28,443 nt of DNA from Bacteroidales bacterium (lineage in GTDB: Bacteria; Bacteroidota; Bacteroidia; Bacteroidales; UBA932). Of the stretch, positions 220 through 28,443 are shown piece after piece. The DNA lies in NCBI GenBank assembly GCA_017551215.1, contig JAFZMA010000137.1:1-28443 (forward strand), given 5' to 3'. The first letter of the stretch is position 1, and each line of letters opens with the position of its first letter. The position numbers and the translations under genes were made by a program. The notes below the pieces were generated by a model. It saw nothing but the letters and a program-made list of their open reading frames with translations. It made no database searches and was not told the DNA's origin.

Positions 220-244
220 CACCTTGATGCTCAGCGATGTAAGA

Positions 245-280
245 AGATGGTCCTGCAGCAAAAACACCGCAGGACCATCT
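245..280. terminator. Bidirectional terminator-like hairpin
   Basis: A perfect 12-base inverted repeat (AGATGGTCCTGC at 245-256, GCAGGACCATCT at 269-280) with a 12-base loop sits between the convergent permease and HAD genes. The T-tracts on both sides are weak, so it is a shared hairpin terminator by position rather than a textbook one. Confidence 0.6.
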
Positions 281-318
281 ATTTAAGAGCCTTATTATCA
301 GCAACTTAGGCGCCACCA

Positions 319-3056: not shown

Positions 3057-3848
3057 ATGGAATCATCTGAAGTTTATAGGGTACTTTCTCCGGAAGAGTT
3101 TGAGGATATCTCTTCCCGTATCTTGTTTGAAGACAACCACTTCCTGATTTTCAACAAGAGGAGCGGGGAGATTGTCCAGGGAGACAAGACTCAAGACGAG
3201 CCGCTCAGCGAAACCCTCAAGGCCTTTATCGCCCAGAGAGACGGAAAAGCCGGTCAGGTCTTCATGGGAGTTGCCCACAGGCTGGACCGCCCTGTAAGCG
3301 GAGCCGTGCTATTTGCAAAGACTGGCAAGGGGTTGGAAAGAATCAATGAGATGCTCCGCGATGGGGATATCCACAAGACCTACTGGGCTCTGGTACAGAC
3401 TCCTCTGGATGGAGTGCCGGACGGCGTGGCTATTGATGATGGCTGGGTGGAACTCCGCGATTATCTATATCGCGATGAAAAGAAAAACAAGTCTTATCCT
3501 TTCACGGGCAAGGGAACTCCTCCTGCAGGATACAAGGAGGCCCGCCTGCTTTACCGGATTATCAAGGAGCTTGACCATTATACTCTTCTGGAAGTTATGC
3601 TTCTGACGGGAAGGCATCATCAGATACGCTGCCAACTGTCTTCCATCGGTTGCCCGATTAAGGGAGACCTCAAATACGGAGCCAACCGTTCCAACAGAGA
3701 CGGATCCATCTGCCTGCACGCCAGAAGGATAGAGTTTATCCATCCTATCGGAAGAAAAGACGCCAAAGGGCTTGCCACCGGCAACGACCGGCTGATTAGC
3801 GTGGAAGCTCCGCTCTCCGGAGAGCTAGGCCGGATCTTAGGACTATGA
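3057..3848 (+). CDS. RluA/RluC/RluD-family pseudouridine synthase
   Basis: A soluble enzyme of 263 residues that isomerises uridine to pseudouridine in structured RNA. The family core is present: LFEDNHFLIFNKRSGE near the N-terminus, then AHRLDRPVSG around residues 73-82, whose aspartate (D77) is the catalytic nucleophile. KTYWALV (107-113) and LLTGRHHQIRCQL further on also match the family. There is no N-terminal S4 domain, which places it with the RluA-like single-domain members. The exact RNA target cannot be read from sequence. The start is uncertain: ATG at 3057 is chosen here, but TTG at 3051 is in frame and closer to the AAGGAAG sequence at 3038-3044. It is likely co-transcribed with gmk. 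Confidence 0.88.
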   Translation: MESSEVYRVLSPEEFEDISSRILFEDNHFLIFNKRSGEIVQGDKTQDEPLSETLKAFIAQRDGKAGQVFMGVAHRLDRPVSGAVLFAKTGKGLERINEMLRDGDIHKTYWALVQTPLDGVPDGVAIDDGWVELRDYLYRDEKKNKSYPFTGKGTPPAGYKEARLLYRIIKELDHYTLLEVMLLTGRHHQIRCQLSSIGCPIKGDLKYGANRSNRDGSICLHARRIEFIHPIGRKDAKGLATGNDRLISVEAPLSGELGRILGL

Positions 3849-4893: not shown

Positions 4894-5457
4894 TTAGGGA
4901 GCCTCAATTGCAGCACGGATTTGGGTGGAGGAGATGTTGTTAAGCGGAGCGTCTTCCAGATACAGGGCCTTGTATTTGCGGCACATGGTCTTTACCCTGT
5001 AACCTTTTCTTGGATAGACTATTACCTTGAATTCTTTAAGGATATCCTCTCCAAGATACCACTTGGGCATAATCTTTAAGGAGTCTGCTCCAACCACAAT
5101 CACAAATTCAGTATCCGGATTCCTCTTCTGGAGTTCCTTCATGGTGTTGAATGTGTAGAGCGGTTCCTTGAGATGGAATTCTATGTCGTTTACAGTAACC
5201 TTGCTACACTTCGGTTTTATTCCGGAGGCCAGAATCTTTTCCTTAAGGCTTCTGTTGAATTTGCCGATTGCCTTCTTCAGGTCTTTCAGCCTCTGCTGGG
5301 GATCCTGGAGCATCTGCTTATCCTTGAAAGGATTGTGCGGGCTTAGAACCATCTCAAAGCGGTCTATGTCGCAATTCAGTATGACATATTCCGCTATGCC
5401 CAGATGTCCGTAGTGGAGAGGGTTGAAGGAGCCGAAATACAAGGCAACTCTTTTCAT
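4894..5457 (-). CDS. nadD: Nicotinate (nicotinamide) mononucleotide adenylyltransferase
   Basis: A 187-residue nucleotidyltransferase that adenylates nicotinic acid mononucleotide to deamido-NAD, the penultimate step of NAD synthesis. GSFNPLHYGH (9-18) is the HxGH-containing ATP site, and ISSTQIR (175-181) is the C-terminal ATP-binding motif. SPHNPFKDK and VGADSL are further family markers. Size is normal. The gene lies 25 bases after an exported-protein gene on the same strand and may be read with it. Its start codon is embedded in one copy of the 9-mer CTCAGCGAT, the last two bases of which are the A and T of ATG. Confidence 0.93.
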   Translation of the reverse strand: MKRVALYFGSFNPLHYGHLGIAEYVILNCDIDRFEMVLSPHNPFKDKQMLQDPQQRLKDLKKAIGKFNRSLKEKILASGIKPKCSKVTVNDIEFHLKEPLYTFNTMKELQKRNPDTEFVIVVGADSLKIMPKWYLGEDILKEFKVIVYPRKGYRVKTMCRKYKALYLEDAPLNNISSTQIRAAIEAP

Positions 5458-5482
5458 CGCTGAGGCTAATCCTTAGTATGGG

Positions 5483-7687: not shown

Positions 7688-7838
7688 CTCAGCGATTTGA
7701 CAAAATGGCAGAAAAATGTCTTATCTCGGCGATGGCACAATTATAGAGTGTAACCATCGCGGAGCACGAATAACTCCCATCGCGGAGCATGAAAGGCTCC
7801 CATAAAAAAGAACAAATAAAAAAATAGGAGATAAAATC
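7688..7838 (+). promoter_or_regulatory. dnaK upstream region with CTCNGCGAT elements
   Basis: TTTGAC (7696-7701) followed about 20 bases later by TATCTCGG (7722-7729) is the best promoter candidate. The same interval has a GACA/TGTC dyad (7699-7702, 7717-7720). Four variants of one word occur here: CTCAGCGAT (7688), CTCGGCGAT (7725), and CTCCGCGAT twice on the minus strand (7756-7764, 7779-7787). CTCGGCGATGG (7725-7735) can pair with CCATCGCGGAG at 7754-7764 or at 7777-7787 (10 of 11 pairs each). TAGGAGA (7825-7831), seven bases before the ATG, is a good ribosome site. No CIRCE operator is seen. Confidence 0.5.
7754..7799 (+). repeat. Two 23-base direct repeats in the dnaK leader
   Basis: Copies 7754-7776 and 7777-7799 begin CCATCGCGGAGCA and end CTC, with four mismatches between them; a third partial copy (CCAT) follows. 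Each can fold on itself: GGAG/CTCC in the first copy and GGAGC/GCTCC in the second. Confidence 0.8.
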
Positions 7839-9779
7839 ATGGGAAAAATTATCGGAATCGATTTGGGAACAACCAACAGTTGTGTCTCAGTAATGGAAGG
7901 CTCTGAGCCTACCGTAATCATCAACAGCGAGGGTAAGAGAACAACCCCTTCTGTAGTTGCATTCACCGGAAACGGAGAGAGGAAGATTGGAGACCCTGCA
8001 AAGAGGCAGGCCATCACCAATCCGACCAAGACCATATACTCCATAAAGAGGTTTATGGGCGAGACTTACGACAGGGTACAGACAGAAATCGCCAGAGTGC
8101 CTTACAAGGTGGTCCGTGGAGACAACAACACCCCTAGAATTGACATTGACGGCAAACTCTATTCTCCTCAGGAGATCTCGGCGATGATTCTTCAGAAGAT
8201 GAAGAAGACAGCAGAAGACCATCTGGGACAGACAATTACAGAGGCCGTTATCACAGTGCCTGCATACTTTACAGACTCTCAGAGGCAGGCCACCAAGGAA
8301 GCCGGAGAGATTGCCGGACTTAACGTAAAGAGAATCATCAACGAGCCTACCGCAGCCGCTCTGGCATACGGACTTGACAAGAAGGAAAAGGATGCCAAGG
8401 TTGCAGTATTCGACCTGGGTGGCGGTACATTCGATATCTCTATCCTTGAGCTCGGCGACGGCGTATTCGAGGTTAAATCCACAAACGGCGATACTCACCT
8501 TGGAGGAGATGACTTTGACCACGTTATCATAGACTGGATGGTTGAGGAATTCAAGATGGAGCATTCCGGCGCAGACCTCAGCAAGGACCCTATGGCCCTC
8601 CAGAGACTGAAGGAAGCAGCCGAGAAGGCAAAGATCGAGCTTTCCAGCCAGACCACAACGGAGATCAACCTGCCTTACATCATGCCTATAGACGGTGTGC
8701 CTCAGCACTTTGTAAAGACTCTTACAAGAGCAAAGTTCGAGGCATTGGCAGACAACCTGTTCCAGAAGTGTATAGAACCTTGCCGCAAGGCATTGGCAGA
8801 TGCTCACCTGAGCGCATCAGACATCAACGAGGTTCTTCTGGTAGGCGGTTCAACCCGTATCCCTAAGGTACAGCAGATGGTTAAGGACTTCTTTGGAAAG
8901 GAACCTAACAAGAGCGTTAACCCTGATGAGGTTGTAGCAATCGGCGCATCCATTCAGGGCGGCGTTCTGGCAGGAGATGTAAAGGATGTGCTTCTGCTTG
9001 ATGTAACCCCTCTGTCTCTGGGTATCGAAACCTTCGGCGGAGTATTCACAAAGCTTATAGAAGCCAACACCACAATCCCTACCCGCAAGAGCCAGATCTT
9101 CTCTACGGCATCTGATAACCAGCCTTCTGTAGAGGTTCACGTGCTCCAGGGCGAGAGGCCAATGGCTTCCGGCAACAAGACCATAGGTAGATTCCATCTG
9201 GACGGAATCATGCCGGCACCAAGAGGCGTTCCTCAGATTGAGGTAACATTCGATATCGATGCCAATGGTATCCTCAACGTATCCGCAAAGGACAAGGGAA
9301 CCGGCAAGGAGCAGCAGATCCGCATTGAGGCATCAAGTGGCCTCAGCGATGCGGAAATCAAGAGGATGAGAGACGAGGCCAAGGCCAACGAGCAGGCAGA
9401 TAATGCCGCCAGGGCAGAGGCAGACAAGCTCAACAACGCAGACGGCCAGATCTTCGCCAGCGAGAAGAACCTCAAGGATTATGGAGACAAGATCCCTGCA
9501 GACAAGAAGGCAAAGATTGAGGAAGCCACAAGGAAACTGAAGGAGGCTCACCAGAACAAGAACATCGCAGAGCTGGATAACCTGATGAACCAGCTTAACG
9601 AGGCTTGGCACGCTGCCAGCGAGGAAATGAACCGTGCGGCAGGCGCACAGCAGGGCCCTAACCCTGGCGCAGGCACTCAGGGTGGCTATGGCCAGAGCAC
9701 AGGCTCAACCGGCGGTCCTTCCAACGGCGGCAAAGGTGACGGAGAAGTAACCGACGTGGACTTTGAGGAAGTTAAGTAA
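7839..9779 (+). CDS. dnaK: Molecular chaperone DnaK (Hsp70)
   Basis: A 646-residue Hsp70 that uses ATP to bind and release unfolded peptides, working with DnaJ and GrpE in the cytoplasm. The nucleotide-binding domain starts [12 protein letters not shown] and contains [30 protein letters not shown] and [13 protein letters not shown]. The interdomain linker is [13 protein letters not shown] (about residues 388-400), followed by the substrate-binding domain, the helical lid (about 505-605) and a glycine-rich tail ending DVDFEEVK. All of this is standard, and the length is normal. dnaJ and grpE are not adjacent, so it is a single-gene unit with its own leader and a strong terminator. Confidence 0.98.
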
Positions 9780-9845: not shown

Positions 9846-9910
9846 CTTCCCCCTGTATTTTCATGTTAATTTCTCAACGTTTTTTCAACATCGCTGAGAA
9901 ATTTTAATTA

Positions 9911-9990: not shown

Positions 9991-11331
9991 ATGAATTGGT
10001 TAGAAAAATACAGCGACAGGATTACCACACCTGAAGGTGCGGCAAATGCTATCCAAAGCGGAATGAACATTGTCTTGGGCCACTCTGCGGCTGCTCCACA
10101 GGAGATTCCTCTGGCAATGATGGACCAGAGAGAAAGGCTGAAAGACGTGAACATCTACCACATGGTTACCCTTCATCCTGCAACCTACATGCTGCCTGAG
10201 GGATATGGCCATTTCCGCCACATCACGAACTTTGCACACGGCAACACAAGAGAGGGCCTCAACGACGACCGCGGAGACTTCTTCCCTTACTACTATCACC
10301 AGGTAGCAGATTGGTTCGACACCCGCTATCCGATTGACGTGGCCATGATTACCGTCACCCCTCCAAACGAGGACGGATATTGCAGCCTCGGTATCAGCGT
10401 GGACTATACCAAGCTTGCAGTTGACCGCGCAAAGATGATAATCGCTGAGATGAATGACCAGATGCCTTTCCTTGGCTATGGAGACTGCCTGATTCACATT
10501 TCAAAGATTGACCACATCGTAAGGACCTCCAAGCCTATGTTCCAGCTTCCTAAGCCTACCATCGGGCCTGTTGAGGAGAAGATCGGAGAGTATTGCGCTT
10601 CTCTTGTTGAAGATGGTGCAACACTACAGCTGGGTATCGGTGCAATTCCGGACGCAGCCCTGCATTACATGACTGGAAAGAAAGACCTCGGAATCCATAC
10701 CGAGATGTTCTCTGACGGCGTAGTAGAGCTTGTAAAGAAGGGAGTTGTGACCAATGCAAAGAAGAAACTCCATCCAGGCAAACTCGTAACGGGATTCCTT
10801 ATGGGAAGCCAGATGCTGTACGACTTTGTGGACCACAATCCGGACGTGCTGATGTTCCCTGTAAACTACTGCAACGACCCTAGGACCATCTGCCAGATGG
10901 ATCACTTCGTATCCATCAACTCGGCTCTAGAAATGGACCTCCAGGGACAGAGCACCGCTGAGACAATCGGACTGAAGGTATTCAGCGGAACCGGCGGACA
11001 GGTAGACTTCATCCGTGGAGCATCCTGGAACAAGACCAGCAAGGCAATCCTTGCATTCCCGTCCACCGCTAAGCACGGAGAACTCTCCCGTATCAAGGCG
11101 TTCCTGACAGAAGGTGCCGGAATCACCACTCCAAGAGATGATATTGATTATGTTATTACAGAGTACGGTATCGCCCACCTGAAGGGAGCTACCCTGAAAG
11201 ACAGGGCAAGAATGCTCATCGGACTGGCTCATCCTAAGTTCCGCGACGATCTCATCAAGGAGTTCGAGAGAAGATTCCCTAGGACACCTTACAAGCCTTG
11301 GGACTTTACCGCCAAAGAATTTGTTTACTAG
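9991..11331 (+). CDS. Acetyl-CoA hydrolase/CoA-transferase family protein
   Basis: A 446-residue class I-type CoA-transferase (AcH/4-hydroxybutyrate and butyryl-CoA:acetate transferase group). These enzymes move CoA between acyl-CoA and acetate or a similar acid through a glutamyl-CoA intermediate, usually as the last step of a fermentation route. The likely catalytic glutamate is E238 in HTEMFSDG, at the same spot as in 4-hydroxybutyrate CoA-transferases. QLGIGAIP (213-220) and FSGTGGQVDF (331-340) form the CoA site. The length fits transferases of about 440 residues. It cannot be decided from sequence alone whether the acyl substrate is acetyl, butyryl, propionyl or 4-hydroxybutyryl. An ATPase gene follows after 15 bases and is probably co-transcribed. 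Confidence 0.88.
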   Translation: MNWLEKYSDRITTPEGAANAIQSGMNIVLGHSAAAPQEIPLAMMDQRERLKDVNIYHMVTLHPATYMLPEGYGHFRHITNFAHGNTREGLNDDRGDFFPYYYHQVADWFDTRYPIDVAMITVTPPNEDGYCSLGISVDYTKLAVDRAKMIIAEMNDQMPFLGYGDCLIHISKIDHIVRTSKPMFQLPKPTIGPVEEKIGEYCASLVEDGATLQLGIGAIPDAALHYMTGKKDLGIHTEMFSDGVVELVKKGVVTNAKKKLHPGKLVTGFLMGSQMLYDFVDHNPDVLMFPVNYCNDPRTICQMDHFVSINSALEMDLQGQSTAETIGLKVFSGTGGQVDFIRGASWNKTSKAILAFPSTAKHGELSRIKAFLTEGAGITTPRDDIDYVITEYGIAHLKGATLKDRARMLIGLAHPKFRDDLIKEFERRFPRTPYKPWDFTAKEFVY

Positions 11332-13370: not shown

Positions 13371-14183
13371 TTACCAGTCGTATTTCAGGTGCTTTACGGT
13401 GCGGTTGTCCTCAATGATCTTCCTCAGAGCGTCTATTCCCATCTGGAGATGGTCTTCTACAAAGTTCTTTGTCACAACCTTGTCGCTTTCCTCTGTCTTG
13501 ATTCCTTCCGGTATCATAGGCTGGTCGGAAACAAGCAGCAGGGCTCCCGTAGGAATATGGTTGGCAAACCCGCAGATGAACAGGGTTGCAGTTTCCATAT
13601 CAACTCCCATCGCGCGTGTGGATGCAAGGTACTTCTTGAATTCCTCATCGTGCTCCCAAAGCCTTCTGTTAGTGGTGAATACGGTACCTGTCCAGTAGTC
13701 CAGGCCATGGTCTCGAATCGCTGAGGAAATTGCTCTCTGGAGCATGAAGGCTGGCAGTGCAGGCACTACAAGAGGATAGTAGTCGTTGGAGGTTCCTTCT
13801 CCACGGATTGCGGCAATAGGAAGAATCAGGTCCCCTATCTTGGTATGCTTGTCTATTCCGCCGCATTTGCCCAGAAAGAGGCAGGCCCTCGGATGTACTG
13901 CACTCAAAAGGTCCATTATGGTGGCTGCGTTCGGGCTGCCCATACCAAAATTGATGATGGTTATTCCGTCTGCGCTGGCATTGGGCATGTTGGAGTCCTG
14001 GCCCACAATCTTTACACCGTACTTCTTTGCAAAAAGATGCAGGTACTTGTCAAAGTTGGTCAGCAGGATGCAGTCTGTAAAGTCCTCCAGTTTCCTCTTG
14101 GTATATCTTGGAAGCCAATTGCTTGCAATGATGTTTTTCTTCTCCTGGCCGGAAACCTGCGCCAATATGTTCTCCTGTTCCAT
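13371..14183 (-). CDS. amn: AMP nucleosidase
   Basis: A 270-residue enzyme of the purine nucleoside phosphorylase/hydrolase fold that splits AMP into adenine and ribose 5-phosphate. Markers are INFGMGSPNAATIMDLL, FLGKCGGIDKHTKIGDLILP, the RGEGTSNDYYP segment typical of AMP nucleosidases, and VDMETATLF, whose MET corresponds to the ribose-binding MExA motif. The short form without the large N-terminal domain of the E. coli enzyme is usual in Bacteroidota. The open frame extends upstream to 14315 across the rmuC stop, but a promoter at 14207-14214 and the family N-terminus place the start at ATG 14183. The Nudix gene follows by four bases. Confidence 0.88.
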   Translation of the reverse strand: MEQENILAQVSGQEKKNIIASNWLPRYTKRKLEDFTDCILLTNFDKYLHLFAKKYGVKIVGQDSNMPNASADGITIINFGMGSPNAATIMDLLSAVHPRACLFLGKCGGIDKHTKIGDLILPIAAIRGEGTSNDYYPLVVPALPAFMLQRAISSAIRDHGLDYWTGTVFTTNRRLWEHDEEFKKYLASTRAMGVDMETATLFICGFANHIPTGALLLVSDQPMIPEGIKTEESDKVVTKNFVEDHLQMGIDALRKIIEDNRTVKHLKYDW

Positions 14184-14250: not shown

Positions 14251-15654
14251 CTACTCTTCTTCAAGAAGCCTGTTCGGGGAATCCGTATCCAGAGAGGAAA
14301 CGTCTGTCTCCACATCCCGCAGTTTCCTGTTTATCTGGTTGGTACGGGTGGTAAGCAACTTATCCATATCGCTGAGGCCACCCTCTATCTTTCCCTTTGC
14401 CTTCTCCAGGAGGTCCCCAAATGTTGAGAATTCTTTCTTCACGTCTCCCAGCACTTTCCAGACATCGCTGCCTTTCTTCTGGATGGCCAGAGTACGGAAT
14501 CCCAGCTGGAAACTTGTAAGGATAGCGGCCAGGTTGGTAGGTCCGGCTACCGTTACATTGAACTCTTTCTGAAGGTTTTGCAGCAATATGCCGTCTCTTG
14601 CAACCTCGGCATAAAGTCCTTCAAAAGGCAGGAACATTATTGCAAAAGGCGTTGTCTGCGGTACGTTAATGTACTTGGTGATATTCTTTGCCTCGTTTCT
14701 GATTGCGGCATAAAAATCCTTGCGGGCCTGTTCCACAATCTCCTTGTCTGCAGTATTGTAGGCGTTTACCAGAGCCTCGTACCTGTCTTCCGGGAACTTG
14801 GAGTCTATAGGAAGCAGTACCGGATTTCCATCTGCACCGGGGAACCGCACGGCAAACTCCACTACCGCGTTCTTGTCTTCTCCCGTATGCGCGTTGGCTA
14901 TGAACTGGCCCGGCGCAAGATACTGTTCCAGAAGCGTTTGCAACTGGATTTCCCCGAGTCCTCCCCTCATCTTAACATTCCCCAGAACCTTCTTCAATCC
15001 TCCGACATCCTTGGCCAGGTCCCTCATCTCCGCAAGCCCTGTCTTTACGTTATCCAGCTGGTTTCCAACGGTCTCAAAGCTCTTGCTAATGCGGTCGTTG
15101 AGGGTCTTGTCCAACTTCTCCTCCACAGTCTGCCGCATGTTCTCCAGGCTCTTTTCAGTGGACTGGATCATCCCGGCCTGAGTCTTCTCAATCTGCTCCA
15201 GTTTCAGCTTCTGGCTCTGTTCCAAAGACTTGAGACGCTCTTCCTGCCCCACCTGCATTTTATCAAGCTGTAGCCTCTGGCTTTCCTCCATAGACTTCAG
15301 ACGTTGCTCCTGCATGGTTTTAAGGCTATCCATCTGGTCTTTCTGGCCTTTATTCAGAAGATCAACTTTTTCGGAAAAATTAGAGTTGAAATCCTTTATC
15401 CTGGCAGAAATCTCTTCCCTCTGCGATGTCTGGGCTCTCTCGTAATCATCCTTGTTCTCCTTGTGGTAATCTTTCATACTCTGCGACAGATTACTCATGA
15501 ACCCGGAGTTCTCCTCCTTGAAAGACTTGAAGAACAGCTCATTCCCTTCTTTCAATGACTTAATGACCTTGCCCTGCCTAAAAGAGAGTACAAACAGAAC
15601 TACCAGTGCAACAACCAGCACCCCGCACAATACATATAAAACAACTTCTGGCAT
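14251..15654 (-). CDS. rmuC: RmuC-family DNA recombination protein
   Basis: A 467-residue protein related to E. coli RmuC, a predicted nuclease-fold protein that limits recombination at inverted repeats. Residues about 5-24 are a single membrane anchor. A long coiled coil (about 30-210) follows, with an internal near-repeat of roughly 25 residues (QEQRLKSMEESQRLQLDKMQ and QEERLKSLEQSQKLKLEQIE). The conserved RmuC domain covers about 220-440, with GEIQLQTLLE, VLLPIDSKFP and FLPFEGLYAE. Length and layout are normal. It has its own promoter and is followed by amn with a separate promoter. Confidence 0.93.
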   Translation of the reverse strand: MPEVVLYVLCGVLVVALVVLFVLSFRQGKVIKSLKEGNELFFKSFKEENSGFMSNLSQSMKDYHKENKDDYERAQTSQREEISARIKDFNSNFSEKVDLLNKGQKDQMDSLKTMQEQRLKSMEESQRLQLDKMQVGQEERLKSLEQSQKLKLEQIEKTQAGMIQSTEKSLENMRQTVEEKLDKTLNDRISKSFETVGNQLDNVKTGLAEMRDLAKDVGGLKKVLGNVKMRGGLGEIQLQTLLEQYLAPGQFIANAHTGEDKNAVVEFAVRFPGADGNPVLLPIDSKFPEDRYEALVNAYNTADKEIVEQARKDFYAAIRNEAKNITKYINVPQTTPFAIMFLPFEGLYAEVARDGILLQNLQKEFNVTVAGPTNLAAILTSFQLGFRTLAIQKKGSDVWKVLGDVKKEFSTFGDLLEKAKGKIEGGLSDMDKLLTTRTNQINRKLRDVETDVSSLDTDSPNRLLEEE

Positions 15655-18382: not shown

Positions 18383-18396
18383 AATTGATAATATTT

Positions 18397-18412
18397 ACAG
18401 TTAATTAACTGT
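18397..18412. promoter_or_regulatory. Palindrome downstream of the lipoprotein promoter
   Basis: ACAGTTAATTAACTGT is a perfect 16-base palindrome in the leader of the 18382 lipoprotein gene. Its 10-base core GTTAATTAAC occurs again at 18489-18498 (overlapping the stop of the upstream gene), so the two copies bracket the promoter like paired operator sites. Confidence 0.45.
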
Positions 18413-18442
18413 CATGCCATCAAAGACTTCATCGTGTTTTAG

Positions 18443-18474
18443 CAAATGTAAGTAAATAATTGTGAAAAAACAAA
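18443..18474 (-). promoter_or_regulatory. Promoter of the cysteine-rich lipoprotein gene
   Basis: On the minus strand TTTG (18474 to 18471) and TACATTTG (18450 to 18443) are 20 bases apart, a full match to the Bacteroidetes promoter. Transcription would begin about 55 bases before the ATG. Confidence 0.65.
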
Positions 18475-18489
18475 TTGAATCAACTATCG

Positions 18490-20103
18490 TTAATTAACAG
18501 AGTGATTACTCTTTACAAACTCTCTTGCGGCAGCCTTTATTTCTATTGTAATGGCATTATATGTACGAGGAGAAGATGCCAGGATGATATTGGCCCATTC
18601 TTTTGCTTTCTCTATTTCTCCCTTGTCGCGATAAAACTTGAACAAATCAAACTTTGGCACCATTCTATCGGGAGCCATATAATGTGCCAAAATGAGACAT
18701 CTTTCAGCTTTGTCATTTTGTGAGCTATCAAGATACAGGTTGCCCAAGGCCGACATCATTTCCACCACGGTTATTCTTTTTGAACATTGTTCAAGAACGG
18801 CTATGTGGTCTTGAGGGGACAACCGGAAAGAATGGGTTGCATAGAGAAGAGTCATGTCCTTGTTTCTTAAAATGATTGATTCACTTGAAGGAAGGATTCT
18901 TTCTGCAATGGAATTTTCAGGAAGGTGAATGAATTCTTTCAAGTCCTTTTCAGCAGAAGAATATCTCTTCCCCACATTCCAGCATACGACGGAGGTCAAT
19001 ATCAAGACAACCGCACAGAAAAGTGATCTGGTTGGCCATTGTTTCTTCTTGTTTTCATTGCAACTGTCGTTAATGCCACAACTGTTTGCAAATCCCAAGA
19101 ACAGCGGAGCCAGTATGATTATGGGAAGGATGTCGTATGTGTAAAGGAAGAATGAAGTGATCCCCAATGAAATGGATGCCGCAACAAGTCCTCTGTTTCT
19201 GCATTTCCTGAAAGAATAAACTACAATCAGGGCAAAAAGGATAAACCCAACAACTCCCTGTTCGCAGAGAATATGCAGATACTCGTTGAATGTCTGATAA
19301 TGGTTTGTAGCAAACGGGGCAAAAGAAGAAAGAGGATTCGCCTGGAAATATTCCGCCTGCCAAGGCATATACAAAGACTGGACAGAGGCGGAAGAATAAC
19401 CGAAAAATGGAGCTTTCAGGAATGCTTCACCACTTGATGCCCAGATCAGAAGCCGTACATCAGCAGACCCAGTACGTATTCTGTATAGAAGAAAGGCACC
19501 AACTAGAACCACCACAGACAAACACACAAAAAGCAGTCGTTTTCTGTTAGATTCTAGAGCTGTGTATTTATCCGAACTGAACCACAGATATGCTAATGCC
19601 ATTACAAAAGCCAGCAAAGCACCCCTTGATCTAGAGAGAAGCAGAATAACAAGCAGTAGTATGCTCAGCGATGCAAGAAGAATCTTTTTGTATCGGTTGC
19701 TGTCTTTTTCAAACAGAAGAGAGATTACTCCAGATAAGCCTATGGAAACATACGCTCCCAAGTGCCCCGGGTTGTAGAAAAAGCCGAAAAGATATGACAG
19801 GGCACCACCCAAACCGACTGTTGTAAGCATTAGAGGAATATATCCTTTATCAGATGATCTTCCTGCAATAAACAGTAAACCAAGAAGCAGCCATTTTACA
19901 ACTGTAAGAGGTTCAATGTAGCTTTCTTTTTCCAGCCAAATTCTGACAAAGGCATACAAACAGTAGGAAAGCAACAGGATATCCGCAGTGTTTATCCTGA
20001 ATTTTCTAGAAAGGCATAGTTGTACACAAACCACAATCGCAGAAATGCAGACCAGGGCAATACATGGGAGCCAGGTTCCGAAATTTGTGGCAGTAGTATA
20101 CAA
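18490..20103 (-). CDS. O-antigen ligase/polymerase-like membrane protein with TPR-like C-terminus
   Basis: A 537-residue protein with roughly ten or more membrane spans and a soluble C-terminal part (from about 400) of helical repeats resembling TPRs. LLSRSRGALLAF and FNEYLHILCEQGVVG match the Wzy/WaaL (O-antigen ligase, PF04932-type) signatures; relatives polymerise or transfer lipid-linked glycans to lipid A or protein on the periplasmic side. The start is odd: the only upstream option is TTG at 20103, directly after an in-frame TGA and the tail of a terminator hairpin. Other Bacteroidota members often carry one more N-terminal membrane span, so the 5' end may be truncated. It is AT-rich. 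Gene order with exported proteins suggests it modifies them, which is inference. Confidence 0.75.
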   Translation of the reverse strand: MYTTATNFGTWLPCIALVCISAIVVCVQLCLSRKFRINTADILLLSYCLYAFVRIWLEKESYIEPLTVVKWLLLGLLFIAGRSSDKGYIPLMLTTVGLGGALSYLFGFFYNPGHLGAYVSIGLSGVISLLFEKDSNRYKKILLASLSILLLVILLLSRSRGALLAFVMALAYLWFSSDKYTALESNRKRLLFVCLSVVVLVGAFLLYRIRTGSADVRLLIWASSGEAFLKAPFFGYSSASVQSLYMPWQAEYFQANPLSSFAPFATNHYQTFNEYLHILCEQGVVGFILFALIVVYSFRKCRNRGLVAASISLGITSFFLYTYDILPIIILAPLFLGFANSCGINDSCNENKKKQWPTRSLFCAVVLILTSVVCWNVGKRYSSAEKDLKEFIHLPENSIAERILPSSESIILRNKDMTLLYATHSFRLSPQDHIAVLEQCSKRITVVEMMSALGNLYLDSSQNDKAERCLILAHYMAPDRMVPKFDLFKFYRDKGEIEKAKEWANIILASSPRTYNAITIEIKAAAREFVKSNHSVN

Positions 20104-20162: not shown

Positions 20163-23100
20163 TTACTTGATTTCCTTAAGGAGGCCCTTAACGGCTGCTT
20201 CAAGCTGAGGGTCCTTGCCGGCAAGGAAATCGTTGTAAGGGAGTTCAACCTTTACGTCCGGCTCAAACTGCTTGTTCTCGGTAACCTTTCCGTCTGTTCC
20301 CATAGAAGCAATCATAGGGATACCGAATACAATGGCAGGATCTATCTGGGTCTCCCACCAAACTGCTGTTCCTGTGCCAGGTACAGGCATTCCGTAAACC
20401 TTTCCTATTCCGTTCTGCTGATATACGAACGGGAACATGAAGGCGTCTGAATAGTTGCCCTCGCAGGTAAGAACTGCGCTCGGCTTCTGCCATCTGCCCA
20501 GAGGCTCGCCATCGTCAAGGAGGTCTCCCTGAGGAGCATAGCGCATGTAAGTCTTTGCACCCAGGAGAGTTACAAGCTCGTCATGCAGCCAACCGCCGCC
20601 GTTGAACCTTGTATCAACAATTACGGCTTCTTTCTTTACATGCTTGCCCATCAGACGGTTGTAGATAACCTGATAGCTCTGCTGGTTCATGCCCTCTACG
20701 TGAACATAACCGATCTTGCCGCCAGAGAGTTTGTCTACCATCTCCTCCATACGTCTTACCCACCATTCGTAGATAAGGTGGCTCAGCGATGATTCAGTCA
20801 CAGGACGGAGAGTCTGTGTGAATGTGTTTCCTGCTGTGGACTTAACGGTTACCACAGTGTTTGCATTTGCAATGTTATTGAGGTACTTGTTGTAGTTCTC
20901 GGATGCAGGAATGCTCTCTCCGTTAATTGCAGTGATGATGTCACCAGGACGGATCTTGTTGGAGAGCTTGTCTGCAGGGCCGCCTGGGATGATGGCGGAA
21001 ACCTTGATGCCCTCTCCGGTGTATGTCTCGTCGAACAGCATACCAAAGTTTGCCGTAACGTCACCGCCGGTAAGAACCCTTGCAGCATAGTAACGTCCAC
21101 CTGTATGGGAAGCATTGAGTTCACCCAGAAGCTCGCTCAGAAGAACCTGGAAATCATAGTTGTTGTTGATGTAAGGGAGGAACTTTGCATATTCGTCGTG
21201 ATACATCTTCCAGTTGATTCCGTGGATCTTAGGATCGTAGAACTTCTTGGTTACCTGAAGCCACATGTGGTCAAACATGTAGGCACGCTCGCCCGCAGCG
21301 TCAAGTTCCATCTTGCCGGCAATCATGATAGGCTTTGCCATACCGCTCATCAGGTCAACCTTAATAGGAGAACCGTTGCGGAGAGCGAACAGGCTCTTTT
21401 CGTCCTGGCTGATTTCTCCGGCGGAAATCATTCCGCCAAGGGAACCCTGACCAACCTTCTTGCTCTCGCGGCTACGGGTATCCGTGCTCCAGAGTTCCAT
21501 TCCCCTCTCTGCGGTGCGGACATAATACATCTTTTTGCCGTCTTTTGTAAGGAAATAGCCAATAGGGCTTCCTTCTGTGCGAATATCCGCTATACGTGTC
21601 TCTATGAGGTCGAAATCGTCAAATACGATAGGTTTTACTTCCTTCTTCTCCGGTTTCTTAGGACCGCCAGGGCCTCCAGGACCCGGCTTGTCGCCCGGCT
21701 TAACGTCTTTCTTGTCGCCAGGTTTTTCTCCCGGTTTTCCGTCTGGCTTCTTCTCGCCCTTTTCCTTCTCCTCAAGAAGTTCAAAATCATCCTTTGAGAG
21801 CATGAACTTGTCGTAAGACTCTTTGTCAAAGAAAGCAGCCTTAACGCTTCCGCCGCCTCTTTGTCCGCCACCGCCGATGTAAGTCATTGCCTGGCCGCCA
21901 AATCCGAACTTGGCCATCCTCTCTCCGTAAGCGCTGTTAACAGGATAACGGATTTCTCCGCCATCGGCACTGATAAGAGCCGTTGCTCCACCCCTCATCA
22001 TATTCTTATCGTCTTCTACAAGAAGCCACTTGCTGTCTGGACTCCACTCGAATCCCCAGTCTCCATCGCGATAAGAATGGTTGTGACCCTTAGGCAGTAC
22101 GGTAACGGTCTTCTTGCTCTTGAGATCCATCACTTTCAGCGTGTTGCGCTCGCAGATGTACGCAAGTTTCTTTCCGTCCGGAGAAATATCCGGCTGGTAG
22201 TTGTCCTTGCCGTCTGCAACCACCTTGTCTGTGTTCACAAGTGTGGAAGCGTAGAAGTATTTCTCCGTGGTATCCTTGAGGGTAGCCTTCATTATGTTCC
22301 AGTTGCCGTCTACCTCAGCGGAGTAGTAAATGGCCTTTCCGTCAGGAGCCCAGGTAATCATCCTCTCCTGGTAAGGAGTGTTGGTGATTCTCTTGGTACG
22401 CCCGTCATTTACTCCTACAACAAACAATTCTCCGCGATTAATCAGGGCAAGCTCCTTGCCGCTTGGGCTCACTGCCATTTCTGTGGCGTTGTTGATGTTG
22501 AGGTTCTTGATCTTCTGGTAACCGGCATTGTCGGCGACATAGATATTGAGTTTCTTTGCCTTCTGGCCGTCCTTTATGGTGTAGATATCACCCTTCCAGA
22601 CAAAAGAGATGGTACCGTTCTTTGCTATGGATACCTCCCTTACAGGGAAGTCTTTATAATCGGTGAGCTGGGTTATCTTTCCGGAAGACAAATCCTGCTT
22701 GAAAAGATTCAGTGCATTGTTAGACTTGTTCAGCTTCATCTCAGAGATGTAGTAAACTGCCTTTCCGTCCGGGCTGAATACAGGCTTGAGGTTCTCTCCC
22801 TCGTAACTGGAAACCTTGGTGTAAGTGTTTGCCTTTATGTCATATACCCAGATGTCTCTTGTAACGGAAGAAGTGTGGTGTTTTCTCCATGGGTCCTCAT
22901 ATCCTTTCTTGTCCTGGAAAACTATCCTGTTTCCGTCTGCACTGAAGTTAGCCTCGTCTGCACCGGCTGCAGTTACCAGGATAGGCCTTCCTCCGTCTAC
23001 CGGAATCTTGTAGAGGTTCTTGAACATGGAAGAAGGGAACCTTACGCTCTCTGCCGGAGCAAATCTTCCGCTTCCGAAAAGTACATACTTTCCGTCCGGA

Positions 23101-23559: not shown

Positions 23560-24717
23560 TTACAGAGACAATTTGTTGAGGACCGGATTGCTGTAAACTT
23601 TCAGATAGAGGTTCATCAGCGGAAGAATGCTCTCCTTCCATCTGGACAGGGTGGAATGCATAACGCTGGCAAACTGCTTGTATTCCTCCTTGGTGTAATG
23701 GTCTGTAAATCTGAATGTATTGTACAGCATGTCGTATGCTATATAATTGGTGTTAAACAACTTATAGCCATTGTATATGCGGTTGTCTATGACAGAGGCA
23801 ATGTAGGCGAGTGCCTCGTTGCGGTCCATTGAGCCCGCTGCCAGGAGTTCCTCCGCGGAAATAGGCTCGCAAATCTGGATGTGGACCTTGCCTTTTGGAG
23901 AAAGGATGCCTTCCATGATACTGCGGAAATCCTCTCCCTTTTCCTTTATGTACGGATGCTCCTGAGACAAGTACAGCTCCCTCACTTTCTGGGTGATGCA
24001 GGTCTCCCACTCGTAGGAGATAGCCATAGGCACAATGTTCAGCGCGGAGAAATTGGTGCCGATGTTCCTGTCTCCGGAAAGGGAGAACATCTTGAGCACG
24101 GTCTGGCTGGTCTTGTCGTCTCCGTCCTTGGTGCGGCCGTTGCGCTGGGCAATCCATACAGACGTATTCCTCTCCGTAAGTACATATCTGATGTAGCTGG
24201 AAAGATGCAGGGAAGTCTTGAAGAAATCCTTTGACGTTCCCCTTCTTATGACCTTGAACATGCGGTTGCTCTTGCCAAGGTCCGTAACAATGCCAGGCTG
24301 CATCAGGTTGTCTCCGAATGTGATTTCCGAGCAGTCCAGACCCTCGTTATGGAGCGCTATCTGAAGAAGGGCTGCATCCAGGAGGATATCTCTGTGATTG
24401 GAAACAAAGAGATAACCCTTGCCTTTTTCCAGATTCTGCAGGCCGTCATACGTAAAACCGGTTGTTGTCTTCTTTGCAATGGCATTGATAGCCTCTGCCA
24501 TGAACTTGGCCTGGAACTCGTAAACTGTCTTGTAAGTTGCAAACTCAGCGATTTTTTCAGCTGCCTTCTCCGGTCCGTAAATGTATTCTATTACTTTGGG
24601 AAAATCCTTGTCGGCTGCAATTCTCTGCATGGCCGCGGGAATCTCATCGTCTCTATACGGGCGTATATCGTCCCATACCGTTGAGATATCCCTTGGCGTT
24701 CTGTTGTTTGTGTCCAT
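23560..24717 (-). CDS. PlsC-like glycerolipid acyltransferase (Bacteroidota type)
   Basis: A 385-residue acyltransferase that probably transfers fatty acyl groups to a lysophospholipid or related acceptor at the inner membrane. The acyltransferase block is FVSNHRDILLD (104-114), a form of the HxxxxD motif with the conserved His and Asp, followed by GDNLM and then IAQRNGRTKDGDDKT in place of FPEGTRS. The C-terminal third, with INRIYNGYKLFNTNYIAYD-like text, is typical of the long Bacteroidota members. No transmembrane segment is obvious. It starts three bases after the hydrolase stop. The acyl donor and acceptor are unknown. Confidence 0.85.
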   Translation of the reverse strand: MDTNNRTPRDISTVWDDIRPYRDDEIPAAMQRIAADKDFPKVIEYIYGPEKAAEKIAEFATYKTVYEFQAKFMAEAINAIAKKTTTGFTYDGLQNLEKGKGYLFVSNHRDILLDAALLQIALHNEGLDCSEITFGDNLMQPGIVTDLGKSNRMFKVIRRGTSKDFFKTSLHLSSYIRYVLTERNTSVWIAQRNGRTKDGDDKTSQTVLKMFSLSGDRNIGTNFSALNIVPMAISYEWETCITQKVRELYLSQEHPYIKEKGEDFRSIMEGILSPKGKVHIQICEPISAEELLAAGSMDRNEALAYIASVIDNRIYNGYKLFNTNYIAYDMLYNTFRFTDHYTKEEYKQFASVMHSTLSRWKESILPLMNLYLKVYSNPVLNKLSL

Positions 24718-24720
24718 AAT

Positions 24721-25581
24721 CTACTCGAATACTGTTTTCTCAAGCCATTCCACAAACCTTTCCTGCCAACCCAAAGCACCGGATTTCTTCTTTGGCGCTA
24801 TGCCGAACCCGTGCCCCCCCTTGGAATGGAATTCCACTTTGCAAGATACGCCTAATTTCTCTAATTCGGAAGCGAATATGTGGGAAGCTTTCGGATTCAC
24901 AATGGGGTCATCCTCGCAATGAAGCAGGAATACCGGAGGGAACTCTTCAGTAACGTTCTCTTCCAGAGAGAGTTTGGCAATCAAAGACCGGTTGCCCCTG
25001 AGGAGGTGCTTGCGAGATGGCTTATGAACCAGCGGATCCCTCATGGTGATAACCGGATAAATCATGGCCACAAAGTTCGCCCTGAAATGCGGATTATCCT
25101 CCATAGCGGCACAGCCCGCAAGATGGCCACCTGCGGAAAAGCCCACAGCCCCTATTCTGGTTGTATCTACGCCAAAGCGGATGCAACTGTCCTTGAGATA
25201 ATCCATGGCAAGACGGTAATCCTCCAGCTGCTGCGGGTATCTGGCTCCGTAAAAGCCCATCCTGTAACGCAGGACAACAGCCACAAATCCCTTGGAAGCA
25301 AACCATTTGGCAACTTGATGTCCCTCTCCCTTAATGCCCAGATAAGTGTAGCTTCCACCCGGCATAATCACAACGGCCGGCCGGTTCTGTCCTTCCTCCT
25401 CCGGAACATAAACGAATACTTTGCTTCTGTGGCGGCCGGAAACGTTTGCGTCTGCGTCTTTCCACAGCTTGTGCACATCCGTCAACTGCTGACCGTAGAT
25501 GTTAAGCGTAAAAAACAATAAAGCCGCCATCAGCAGCCATCTAAACCATCTCTCCTTCCGACCTGTATAAATCTCTGTCAT
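24721..25581 (-). CDS. Exported alpha/beta hydrolase (esterase-like)
   Basis: A 286-residue hydrolase with an N-terminal signal or anchor (RWLLMAALLFFTLNIYG, residues about 14-30). The catalytic triad is visible: S149 in GFSAGG, D225 in CEDDPIVN and H257 in GGHGFG. PGGSY (74-78) supplies the oxyanion loop. The layout is like BD-FAE/acetyl-xylan-esterase and lipase-like hydrolases, so it likely cleaves an ester outside the cytoplasm. The start ATG lies 41 bases inside the upstream gene; the next in-frame ATG (25530) would remove the basic part of the signal, so the longer start is kept. It is translationally coupled to its neighbours. Substrate not known. Confidence 0.87.
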   Translation of the reverse strand: MTEIYTGRKERWFRWLLMAALLFFTLNIYGQQLTDVHKLWKDADANVSGRHRSKVFVYVPEEEGQNRPAVVIMPGGSYTYLGIKGEGHQVAKWFASKGFVAVVLRYRMGFYGARYPQQLEDYRLAMDYLKDSCIRFGVDTTRIGAVGFSAGGHLAGCAAMEDNPHFRANFVAMIYPVITMRDPLVHKPSRKHLLRGNRSLIAKLSLEENVTEEFPPVFLLHCEDDPIVNPKASHIFASELEKLGVSCKVEFHSKGGHGFGIAPKKKSGALGWQERFVEWLEKTVFE

Positions 25582-28443
25582 TATCCCTTAACTTCTTGTA
25601 TTTGGCATCGGCGTTAACTCTTCCTTCCAGGGAAGAGTAAGCCTGTATGTAGTATCTTCTGAATTCCTGGGCCTGCTTAAGCGGCCTAGGACCCCAATCT
25701 TCAAGTTCTGAAGGACTTATCCTGTCTCCCAACTGAATAACGACCTTCCCGCGCCTGAGCAGGTGCTCTCTCTTTGGAAGCACCTGGCCCGGACCATAAA
25801 GAATAACCGGAAGGATATCCATTTCCAGATCCCTTGCTAGAGAGAAAGCGCCGCTGCGGAACTTGAGTATGCTGCAGTCCCCGCTTCTCGTACCTTCCGG
25901 GAATACCAGTATGGACACCCCCTCATCCCTGAGAGCCTTCAGTTTTTCCAGGTTGGCCTCCACTCCGTCATCTATGCACACAAAACCTGCCTTGCGTACA
26001 AAGTTACCATAAACCGGGGATTTATACACCCATCCGTTGGTGACAACCGCAATTTTGTCTGAAAGACTGAGCAGATACATAAGGTCCAGGTGAGACTGGT
26101 GGTTGCAGATAATCACGGCCGGCTTCTCCTGTGCAAACAGCTTGTCCGTCTCCTTGAAAATCTCCTTGCCCTCAAGATGTGCATCGCTGAGCATCAGAGA
26201 GAAGGAGGTTCTTGGCAACCCCTTGGAGAAGAAGCGCATAATGCCTGTTATCCTTTTCCTCAGCGATGCGGAATCTGTCCTGCCCCCCAGCGCTGTCCTG
26301 AGCTTCAGGCCAGTAAGCACAGCAACAAAGACTATCCCGCACCAGAGGGTGACCAGGATATCGGTGAGCCTTACCGGAAAAATTCTGTCCTCCCTTTCTT
26401 TGCTCAGCGATTTGCAAACCAGGAAACGGAAGATCACGGGAGGAAGCACAAATGCCAGCGCCACAACGCAGACCATTCCTATAACAGCCACGCTGCCAAG
26501 GGAATGCAGAGCCGGATGAACGGCAAAGACCAGAGAGCCCACACCGATGAACATGGTCAGGGCGGATAGAGTAACGCCCGTCTTGTAGGACGGAAGCAGA
26601 GGCTTCTTGAAAGTATGCTCGTATTGCAGGCCTTCCACCATGAATATTGTGTAGTCGTCACCCAGACCGAATATGAACGTGGCAAGTATTATGTTCACTA
26701 TGTTGAAGCTTACGCCGAATATTCCCATTATGCCGGTTATCCATATCCAGCTCACCACCATAGGCAGGAAAGCCGCCAGCGCAAGTTCCAGGCGGCGGAA
26801 GGCAATCCACAGGAAGCAGAACACCAGTATTGAGCAGATAGCCAGCACTTTGTCAAAGTCCTCCTGAAGAATGTCTATCATCTTGTCTGTCATGGAATAG
26901 GAATCGAACAGGAAAGAACCATCTGCCTTGCCGCTGAAATTCGAGTAAGATGCATATAGGCTGTCCACCTTGTCTGACGGACAGTAGAGAATGTCCATAA
27001 CTATAGTGGAGGAACTGTCTTTCAGTATGAAAGGAGAAAGCAGAGATGCAACAGGAGCAAAGAACTCCTCGTCGCGTACCTCCAGATTATTTGCCAGAAG
27101 GCCGCGGAAAGCGTTGAACGCATCCTTGCTGAATCCGGCTTTGGAAGCATTTGCGTCCAGTGCCTTCAGGAGAGTTTCAGAGTTCTTCTCCGAGAACTCT
27201 TTCCACATTTCAAGCCTCCGGGCTTGAGAAGAGGAAGATGGCAGGAACGGTCCTATTCCCCTGAATTTAAGTCCATTGATTTTATCAGCAGAAGAAGCCA
27301 TGAAACCCTGGCTCTTCTCGGATGCCTCGAGAGCCTTGTCCAGAGAGCTCCCCTCCGAAACAGCGTATACCGCAATGGCGCCCGGAGCGGAATTATATGC
27401 GGAAAGCTCCTCCAGCAGTTTCTGCTGCTGCGGTGCCATATAGTTTATCTTGGTAAAGTCTCCGCTGAAGGTAACCTTGCGGCTGAAGAAGAACAGGACA
27501 ACCGTAACTCCCAGAATAATCCAGAACATGAAGCGGCTTTCCTCCGGACGAATATTAGCCCATTTTCCCATCCATCCGCCGTCTCTGCTCCTGTATTCCT
27601 TCTCTCCAACCCAGTGAGGCAGAAACAGAACCACAAACAGTATAGCTCCCACCAGAGACACTGCGGCAAACAGGCCAAAGTCCCTCATTCCGGAAGCGCT
27701 CATTACAAGCAGAGAAAGGAATGCGCCAACCGTGGTTATATTGCCGATTACCATCGGGCTGGCTATGTCCTTCAACGCCGTACGGGAATTATGAGTGAAG
27801 CCCAGACGTGTGGAATACAGCAGAGAGTAATCCACTGCTATTCCGAATATTACGCAGCAGGCCGCCAGAGCCACGCTGGAAACTTCCGCCTTGAACGCTC
27901 CCATGAACGCAAGTCCCGCGGCTATGCCAAAGATTACCGGTATGCAGATGAGAACTATTGGCCTTACCCTTCTGAAATACCAGGCCAGAAGAATAATTAT
28001 CAATGCCACAGCTATGGAAGCGCACCACACGGTGTCTTGCATCATCCTGTCCGCATTCATCACAGCCACCACAGGAGAACCGGTAAAAGTCATCTCCACA
28101 TCCGGGAACTTGGCCTGGACAGAATCCCTTACGGCATATACCCGACTGAGCATCTGCTTGTTATGATTAGTCTCACTCCCTCCGAATCCAGACGAGAAGT
28201 TCATCATTACAGCCAGAGAATCCGGTGTATAAAGATAATCTCCTATAACCTTGTAGCCGCTCTGGGAACCAAGATCCGACAGCTTTTTCAGAAGGCCGGC
28301 GGAAAAGTGGAAAGGATCCGCGGAAACTATGCCCTGCGAGATTCCGGAAGTGGAAACCAGAGATGCCCTGTCCTCTTCCAGTGCCGCAAGGAAATCCCCC
28401 CTCTGAATAATGGAATCCATCGCAGAGTAATCTTCAGAGTCCA
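25541..28443 (-). CDS. MMPL-family transporter fused to a lysophospholipid acyltransferase, partial
   Basis: The frame runs open past the right edge, so the N-terminus is missing; at least 960 residues are seen. An RND/MMPL exporter with two membrane-span clusters forms most of it, including GIAVDYSLLY in the first half and FGLGDDYTIFMVEG in the second, where acidic residues in the membrane are typical of proton-driven MMPL pumps. The last 230 residues are a PlsC domain: CNHQSHLDL (HxxxxD) and FPEGTRSGD. Related Bacteroidota proteins are annotated as trifunctional, with a SAM-dependent methyltransferase after the acyltransferase; here the protein stops just after the acyltransferase, so that domain is absent. 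Likely lipid or polyene-type pigment export. The hydrolase gene overlaps its end. Confidence 0.87.
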   Translation of the reverse strand, partial: DSEDYSAMDSIIQRGDFLAALEEDRASLVSTSGISQGIVSADPFHFSAGLLKKLSDLGSQSGYKVIGDYLYTPDSLAVMMNFSSGFGGSETNHNKQMLSRVYAVRDSVQAKFPDVEMTFTGSPVVAVMNADRMMQDTVWCASIAVALIIILLAWYFRRVRPIVLICIPVIFGIAAGLAFMGAFKAEVSSVALAACCVIFGIAVDYSLLYSTRLGFTHNSRTALKDIASPMVIGNITTVGAFLSLLVMSASGMRDFGLFAAVSLVGAILFVVLFLPHWVGEKEYRSRDGGWMGKWANIRPEESRFMFWIILGVTVVLFFFSRKVTFSGDFTKINYMAPQQQKLLEELSAYNSAPGAIAVYAVSEGSSLDKALEASEKSQGFMASSADKINGLKFRGIGPFLPSSSSQARRLEMWKEFSEKNSETLLKALDANASKAGFSKDAFNAFRGLLANNLEVRDEEFFAPVASLLSPFILKDSSSTIVMDILYCPSDKVDSLYASYSNFSGKADGSFLFDSYSMTDKMIDILQEDFDKVLAICSILVFCFLWIAFRRLELALAAFLPMVVSWIWITGIMGIFGVSFNIVNIILATFIFGLGDDYTIFMVEGLQYEHTFKKPLLPSYKTGVTLSALTMFIGVGSLVFAVHPALHSLGSVAVIGMVCVVALAFVLPPVIFRFLVCKSLSKEREDRIFPVRLTDILVTLWCGIVFVAVLTGLKLRTALGGRTDSASLRKRITGIMRFFSKGLPRTSFSLMLSDAHLEGKEIFKETDKLFAQEKPAVIICNHQSHLDLMYLLSLSDKIAVVTNGWVYKSPVYGNFVRKAGFVCIDDGVEANLEKLKALRDEGVSILVFPEGTRSGDCSILKFRSGAFSLARDLEMDILPVILYGPGQVLPKREHLLRRGKVVIQLGDRISPSELEDWGPRPLKQAQEFRRYYIQAYSSLEGRVNADAKYKKLRDNDRDLYRSEGEMV

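Follow-up and report, generated by a model that had tools for sequence, protein, structure and literature searches.

The stretch of DNA considered here, referred to as the window, comprises the 28,443 nucleotides of contig JAFZMA010000137.1 in the assembly GCA_017551215.1 of a Bacteroidales bacterium (GTDB lineage UBA932). The genes of the window are ordinary by profile matches and include those for an aldolase, guanylate kinase, NadD, DnaK, AMP nucleosidase and a HerA-like ATPase, and no tRNA or Rfam family was found in it. Scattered among these genes is a nine-base word, ATCGCTGAG, which is the subject of this work. The original prediction had described 14 exact copies in both orientations, at a density far above chance. 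This description holds: the copies lie between positions 230 and 26411, six on the plus and eight on the minus strand, and 100 dinucleotide-preserving shuffles of the window, which define the expectation, gave a mean of 0.20 and a maximum of 2 copies, with none reaching 14. The word is the commonest 9-mer of the window, and the runner-up (8 copies) overlaps it.

The middle base of the word is free, since ATCGCNGAG is found 24 times in the window against 0.72 expected. With a purine (R) at the first base, the fuller word reads RTCGCNGAG and occurs 26 times, or 9.1 times per 10 kb (Table 1). Six of these copies are intergenic and two straddle a gene end, in a window of which 8% is non-coding. 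Among the 14 exact copies, three are fully intergenic and one lies across the nadD start by our own gene list, which agrees with the four placed there before; the copy at 230 counts as intergenic only if the window does not cut off a gene at its left end. The word-free stretch at 15488-19663 coincides with a low guanine plus cytosine (GC) content of 36-42% and an O-ligase-like gene, and is probably an exchanged polysaccharide island.

The word at the genome scale

The word was followed in the genome G167, of which 1,896,138 of 1,946,911 bases in 7 contigs were analysed. Among the 8-, 9-, 10- and 11-mers present 15 times or more, ranked against an order-4 Markov expectation, variants of the word lead at each length, with 329 copies of ATCGCTGAG against 26.0 expected and 280 of ATCGCCGAG against 17.6. 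The enrichment is not shared equally by many unrelated 9-mers in this genome, a possibility that had been raised with the first description. In total, G167 contains 1201 copies of RTCGCNGAG, one per 1.57 kb. The flanks of the word are also biased: the preceding base is C in 46% and G in 8% of cases, and positions 10-13 are A-rich (38-45%). The exact core ATCGCTGAG is preceded by C, A or T and followed by the A-rich stretch.

The same word leads in 448 kb of a second genome, G128, with T commoner in the middle. There, ATCGCTGAG is present in 138 copies against 6.3 expected; these compare with 262 one-mismatch copies, or 155 without the free middle base, the count being of the exact form and not of the degenerate word. 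G128 also holds 23 copies (1.0 expected) of ATCGGTGAC, which is close to the word but differs in one half and may be a minor variant of it. The next unrelated enriched word in both genomes is CAAATTTA/TAAATTTG, which recalls the -7 box of Bacteroidota promoters; the k-mer count therefore also recovers a known signal.

Distribution among relatives

The comparison loci were the best 80 of 590 Bacteroidales loci found via the aldolase, together 1,337,556 bases, and they hold 11 exact copies of ATCGCTGAG in total. The family of one of these loci was sampled as 299 genomes; the locus L005 belongs to G003, a member of this family. Eleven of them contain 168-625 exact copies each and the other 288 contain 0-76, while the reversed word, used as a control, is present in 0-3 copies in the word-rich eleven. 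The repeat of the enrichment in related genomes, which had been proposed as a check, is also seen within the genus of G167, where 11 of 39 genomes carry 1311, 1253, 1234, 1176, 1162, 1081, 1074, 1002, 912, 728 and 371 copies of RTCGCNGAG. The remaining 28 carry 6-181, and the reversed pattern is found 35-120 times in the word-rich genomes of the genus. Forward and reverse-strand counts are similar in all 11.

DnaK was compared in 28 genomes, mostly picked for high word counts. Its identity to the DnaK of the window is 95-97% in nine word-rich genomes, 94% in the word-poor G159, 93% in the word-rich G084 and 88% in G227. A tree of DnaK sequences, from 20 genomes and the window, places the latter in one clade with ten word-rich genomes (support 1.000), and G227 and G159 stand just outside it, with poor mutual support (0.42). 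The enrichment of the word is real, genome-wide and limited to a clade.

Reading frame, conservation and strand

The first explanation to be considered is that the word reflects codon or amino-acid bias, e.g., Ile-Ala-Glu written as ATC GCN GAG, or that it belongs to a mobile or repeated element present in many copies. Gene calls made by our own script in G167 (1607 genes, 92.1% coding) place the 893 copies of ATCGCNGAG in all six frame classes, with 40-292 copies each; 61 lie wholly between genes and 15 straddle a gene end. The largest class is indeed sense frame 0, which reads Ile-Ala-Glu (292/893) and is what a codon bias would produce; the other five classes and the intergenic copies are not. 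The exact T form is missing from just one sense frame, the one in which a stop codon would arise.

Conservation between G167 and G128 was measured over 252 pairs of orthologs (288,087 aligned bases, 80% identity). Word sites are kept in 105 of 186 cases, and in 105 of 185 in the reverse reading, against 21% and 24% for permuted words. About 43% of the sites differ between the two species and therefore point to turnover. Gaps occur at 3/189 and 2/187 word sites and at 7/853 permuted-word controls; the word sites are not insertions, which speaks against a repeated element. The synonymous test considered codons that encode the same amino acid in both genomes and have their wobble base inside the word, with the same codons elsewhere as the expectation. 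Identical synonymous codons are found inside words in 295/392 cases against 207.2 expected (z 9.5) and, in the reverse reading, in 298/406 against 228.7 (z 7.3). Such an excess is present in all frame classes except the small plus frame 1 (n 18 and 19), with 0.56 vs 0.56 and 0.58 vs 0.53. Between these two genomes the word is conserved beyond the need of protein and codon, and the early claim that protein sequence does not drive it is upheld by the six frame classes and by this test. Close relatives with similar proteins, moreover, have the word at background counts. Frames, synonymous conservation and gap counts rule out codon bias, repeats and insertions, and this explanation is hardly credible.

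A second explanation takes the word as a Chi-like recombination site or as a polar segregation signal of the FtsK-orienting type. It was proposed with the first description of the word, next to an uptake sequence, and hundreds to about 1000 copies per genome would suit it, as would a UvrD/AddA-like protein that a short-motif search of G167 brought up. Known Chi sites and FtsK-orienting sequences favour one of the two replication strands. The orientation of the word was examined on G167 contigs of clear mean GC skew, which served as a proxy for the leading strand, leaving out C5, C2 and C7. On these contigs 425 copies lie on the G-rich, leading-like strand and 405 on the lagging-like strand (p 0.51). 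The mixed-skew contig C5 has 180 copies on each strand (C2 and C7 are small), and along C1, a long contig of positive skew, no 40-kb bin lacks either orientation. Because no strand bias exists, Chi and segregation functions are disfavoured, and we regard them as very improbable. The uptake-like part of the early proposal fares better and is favoured below, conditionally.

Close opposite pairs of words are few in G167, with 31 neighbours within 60 bases. In the window, four copies lie within 100 bases upstream of dnaK (7688-7787), two on the minus strand followed by two on the plus strand. This inverted arrangement resembles the close opposite pairs reported for the uptake signal sequences (USS) of Pasteurellaceae and the DNA uptake sequences (DUS) of Neisseriaceae.

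Low-GC parts of G167 are poor in the word. Per 10 kb, 1.1 words are found in the 8 bins below 42% GC, 6.7 in the 93 bins of 48-50% and 7.4 in the 54 richer bins, low GC being used as a stand-in for a foreign origin of the DNA. The biggest word-poor island, C1:440-482 kb, is a polysaccharide cluster as judged by eye from the first 70 residues of each protein.

A surface operon in word-rich genomes

In G167, a five-gene operon encodes proteins that may act on DNA at the cell surface (Table 1). The genes of the DUF5689 lipoprotein and the CarboxypepD_reg barrel adjoin each other (C4:105600-109568, 12 bp apart). The short DUF5689 protein, about 340 amino acids long, is present in all 11 word-rich genomes of the genus and in G159, G249, G193 and G263, and in six other genus genomes the sole DUF5689 protein is a different and longer one (711-922 amino acids). 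The barrel, at an identity of at least 65%, is found in 15 of the 39 genomes, as a fragment only in G263 and split across two contigs in G278; in the other 24, nothing scored above 53 bits. The 848-amino-acid protein (at least 51%) is likewise found in 15 of 39, including G261, which has no barrel match. In G117 (C16:56151-59360) this anchor-J-like protein seems to be enlarged to about 1077 amino acids, with an internal duplication. The two nuclease genes were profiled in G167 only, and in 12 further genomes where a single contig carries the two flanking genes, these are 2.25-2.34 kb apart, which leaves room for nuclease genes.

With the operon called from the barrel, the short DUF5689 protein and/or the anchor-J protein, it occurs in 16 of the 39 genomes: in 11/11 word-rich ones and in 5/28 others (Fisher p 2.6e-6, kinship ignored). 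The 23 operon-less genomes hold 6-144 copies of RTCGCNGAG, and all word-rich members of the genus bear the operon. In the five genomes with the operon that are poor in the word, the 80-181 copies are close to the 64-97 counted for the reversed pattern. One of these, G159, seemed from 45 kb to use CATCGTGA as a dialect, which was rejected because the whole genome has just 71 copies. Elsewhere, CATCGTGA occurs 92-185 times in ten word-rich genomes, 72 times in G227 and 122 times in G249; it exceeds its reversed control several-fold in the word-rich genomes of the genus (72-185 vs 13-33) and less so in others.

The model of the DUF5689 protein gave 25 Foldseek matches at E<=0.001 with HIN-200 DNA-binding domains on top, and VIA-align, whose rows mainly cover residues 33-168, indicates an OB fold in that region. 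The competence genes named in the original prediction were found in part. ComEC is present in 31 of 33 genomes, including all 11 word-rich ones, and therefore does not discriminate word-rich from word-poor genomes. Besides ComEC, G167 has DprA-like, ComF-like and RecA-like proteins; helix-hairpin-helix (ComEA-like) and DUF1343 proteins were not found there by short motifs, which is a weak test.

Table 1. Copies of the word and its variants in the window, and the surface operon of genome G167
Element	Position	Strand	Context
ATCGCTGAG	230..238	-	intergenic by our gene list
ATCGCGGAG variant	3354..3362	-	RluA-like gene, antisense
ATCGCGGAG variant	3453..3461	-	RluA-like gene, antisense
ATCGCTGAG	5456..5464	+	across nadD start
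ATCGCTGAG	7688..7696	-	intergenic, upstream of dnaK
ATCGCCGAG variant	7725..7733	-	intergenic, upstream of dnaK
ATCGCGGAG variant	7756..7764	+	intergenic, upstream of dnaK
ATCGCGGAG variant	7779..7787	+	intergenic, upstream of dnaK
ATCGCCGAG variant	8177..8185	-	dnaK, antisense
GTCGCCGAG variant	8451..8459	-	dnaK, antisense
ATCGCTGAG	9342..9350	-	dnaK, antisense
ATCGCAGAG variant	9564..9572	+	dnaK, sense frame 0
ATCGCTGAG	9890..9898	+	intergenic, downstream of dnaK
ATCGCTGAG	10441..10449	+	CoA-transferase gene, sense frame 0
ATCGCTGAG	13717..13725	+	AMP nucleosidase gene, antisense
ATCGCTGAG	14368..14376	+	467-aa (amino-acid) gene, antisense
ATCGCAGAG variant	15419..15427	-	467-aa gene, sense frame 2
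GTCGCAGAG variant	15479..15487	-	467-aa gene, sense frame 2
ATCGCTGAG	19664..19672	-	O-ligase-like gene, sense frame 2
ATCGCTGAG	20782..20790	-	1102-aa TolB-like/protease gene, sense frame 2
ATCGCGGAG variant	22430..22438	-	1102-aa TolB-like/protease gene, sense frame 1
ATCGCTGAG	24544..24552	-	385-aa gene, sense frame 0
ATCGCTGAG	26183..26191	+	RND/acyltransferase gene, antisense
ATCGCTGAG	26259..26267	-	RND/acyltransferase gene, sense frame 2
ATCGCTGAG	26403..26411	-	RND/acyltransferase gene, sense frame 2
ATCGCAGAG variant	28419..28427	+	across RND gene start
Operon, G167	C4:105600-114388	-	five genes, gaps of 2 to 55 bases
Operon protein			848 aa, BACON domain, anchor-J-like
Operon protein			DNA/RNA non-specific endonuclease, PF01223 (Endonuclease_NS); nearest solved relatives are nucleases 2o3b, 1zm8
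Operon protein			Exo_endo_phos_3
Operon protein			980-aa outer-membrane barrel with CarboxypepD_reg
Operon protein			337-aa DUF5689 lipoprotein, last in operon

A second word

Another word is dispersed and frequent in some of the comparison loci. GGCCGAT occurs 40 times in the 20.5 kb of L002, 34 times in L003, 27 times in the 14.5 kb of L014 and 19 times in L080, and 1-8 times in each of six other loci checked. No other candidate word of the 80 loci proved to be dispersed in this way. Candidates at L018 13243-13446, L061 16430-16808, L026 2516-2705, L022 13902-14091 and L057 1040-1100 were rejected as short repeats, tandem or local, which imitate the over-representation of a word, and those of L069 and L011 as clustered copies of CAGAATGA.

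The form GGCCGATR was counted over 21 whole genomes. The genomes of L002, L003 and L014 contain 2328, 3127 and 2827 copies (reversed control 276-303), that of L080 a weaker 1211 (control 242), and the other 17 contain 28-614. Among the latter, G313 and G314 have 582 and 595 copies over controls of 130 and 128, an excess of about 4.5-fold, and G167, G128 and G269, which carry the first word, and the word-poor G159 have 99, 112, 171 and 28 copies, fewer than the control in each case. The four GGCCGATR loci (76 kb) contain a single RTCGCNGAG, and GGCCGATR is absent from the window. Single-base changes of GGCCGATR are sharply rarer at most positions. Its standing as a signal is weakened by two observations: 48 of 101 copies are in one frame (Ala-Asp), and a phase-aware model leaves a weaker excess, e.g., 11 vs 2.2. 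Codon effects are excluded less well for GGCCGATR than for RTCGCNGAG. The two words have CGAT followed by a purine in common when RTCGCNGAG is read as its reverse complement; this shared core may be due to chance, and GGCCGATR is perhaps a dialect.

A possible route of DNA uptake

We consider RTCGCNGAG to be a genome-wide self-recognition word of a Bacteroidales lineage, similar to an uptake sequence and read by a different machine, with a probability of roughly 0.6. This reading is favoured over a Chi-like or segregation signal by the genome-wide density of the word, its balance between replication strands, its presence in every frame open to it, its rarity at low GC and its co-occurrence with the surface operon. 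We infer that the operon takes up DNA with the help of a word-reading protein and that the bias of uptake drives the enrichment; the uptake step stays an inference because no secretin was found and five operon-bearing genomes lack the word. In such a mechanism, a surface lipoprotein encoded in the DUF5689 operon, or a protein that partners it, would recognise the word on extracellular DNA, and the CarboxypepD_reg outer-membrane barrel would admit that DNA. The operon nucleases would process it, and ComEC, DprA and RecA would bring it across the inner membrane and then into the chromosome. Fragments with the word would be taken up and recombined more often, which would allow the word to spread and to be kept in any frame and on any strand.

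An example of a transformable member of the same phylum is Riemerella anatipestifer. ComEC, DprA, ComF, RecA and four further proteins are essential there; two of the four form an adjacent pair, one containing DUF5689 and the other being an outer-membrane protein with a carboxypeptidase regulatory domain (PMC8459023). The DUF5689 and CarboxypepD_reg genes stand side by side here as well.

Several points weigh against the uptake reading. The likeness to the Riemerella pair (RA0C_RS04920/RS04915) is one of domain names only, and homologs of RS04915 were found only in Flavobacteriaceae (PMC8459023). Most of the 80 other Bacteroidales loci are without any such word, and five genomes have the operon without it, namely G159 (181 copies of RTCGCNGAG), G249 (154), G263 (133), G193 (112) and G261 (80); in 45 kb of G159, no alternative dominant word came to light. 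Few evolutionary events underlie the association of word and operon. With 3941 homologs of its barrel in the database, the operon is not specific to the word. The HIN matches of the DUF5689 model reach template modelling (TM) scores of only 0.21-0.27 at root mean square deviations of 12-14 A, and the tandem arrangement is therefore poorly matched. The receptor of DUS is a type IV pilus protein, and a secretin is part of the uptake machine in the known systems. A search for the type IV pilus secretin (PF00263) was positive in 0 of the 39 genomes of the genus and in 6 of 14 controls, and therefore gives no support to a pilus-based machine of the familiar type. In G167, moreover, the intergenic preference is weak (61/893, or 6.8%, of copies vs 7.9% of the length, with permuted words at 3.4%), and the spacing follows a Poisson distribution, not more regular than random (variance/mean 1.02 over 187 10-kb bins, coefficient of variation of the gaps 1.15).

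The main alternative is that an intracellular DNA-binding protein or DNA methyltransferase recognises the word as its site, in a genome-wide and strand-neutral role such as chromosome packing or epigenetic or self/foreign marking, and that no uptake takes place. Such a site would equally be expected to be neutral as to strand, independent of reading frame and more conserved than codons require, the scarcity of the word in low-GC islands is expected too, and operon-bearing genomes without the word are easily accommodated. Within the genus, however, the word is confined to genomes with a DNA-handling surface operon, and one copy per 1.57 kb with Poisson spacing is within the range that PMC1626085 gives for uptake sequences. 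An intracellular site appears unlikely to us.

The uptake reading can be extended to both words, tentatively and at odds that fall somewhat short of even. Lineage-specific words such as RTCGCNGAG and GGCCGATR would restrict transformation to kin and would be read by a secretin-free surface machine of barrel, OB-fold lipoprotein and nucleases, evolved independently in a third group. If true, this would be a third, unrelated case of uptake sequences, without a pilus secretin, and comparison would make it testable whether they are a side effect of receptor bias or a selected means of kin recognition. DNA in Bacteroidales of the animal gut could then move by kin-restricted transformation, for which candidate receptors are named here, and the word would serve as a sequence mark that exposes foreign islands in these genomes.

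Comparison with known systems

With Chi and FtsK-orienting sequences the word shares that it is short and genome-wide, and it differs from them in not being polar with replication. No uptake sequence in Bacteroidota was found in the open-access literature, a search that left subscription journals mostly outside. In 2006, uptake sequences were stated to be known from Pasteurellaceae and Neisseriaceae only (PMC1626085), and the term 'uptake sequence' is not mentioned in the available text on Riemerella (PMC8459023). In the latter, DUF5689 and DUF5017 are joined in one protein, whereas G167 has a 337-amino-acid DUF5689 protein and a separate 848-amino-acid BACON/anchor-J-like protein, as well as two nucleases in the operon. 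The word is not filed as a USS or DUS, and is said only to work like one, because the search for their pilus machine gave no match.

According to PMC1626085, the USS of Pasteurellaceae are AAGTGCGGT and ACAAGCGGT, with 742-1760 copies per genome (199 in H. ducreyi) and a density of uptake sequences of about one per kb. The word described here differs from them in sequence and phylum, in its free middle position, in a spacing not more regular than random and in the missing secretin (0/39). It resembles them as a 9-bp word without orientation bias, found in coding DNA, not inserted, with an AT-rich 3' flank and perhaps also subclade-specific types, and H. ducreyi is a word-poor member there as G159 is here (PMC1626085). 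PMC3630211 describes the DUS of Neisseriaceae as species-specific dialects that share a core and reach thousands of copies, with none over-represented in some relatives. DUS are 10- to 12-mers with a CTG core, in contrast to the two words of different genera reported here, which share at most CGAT(R); relatives without an over-represented word are common to both, and dialects may be (PMC3630211).

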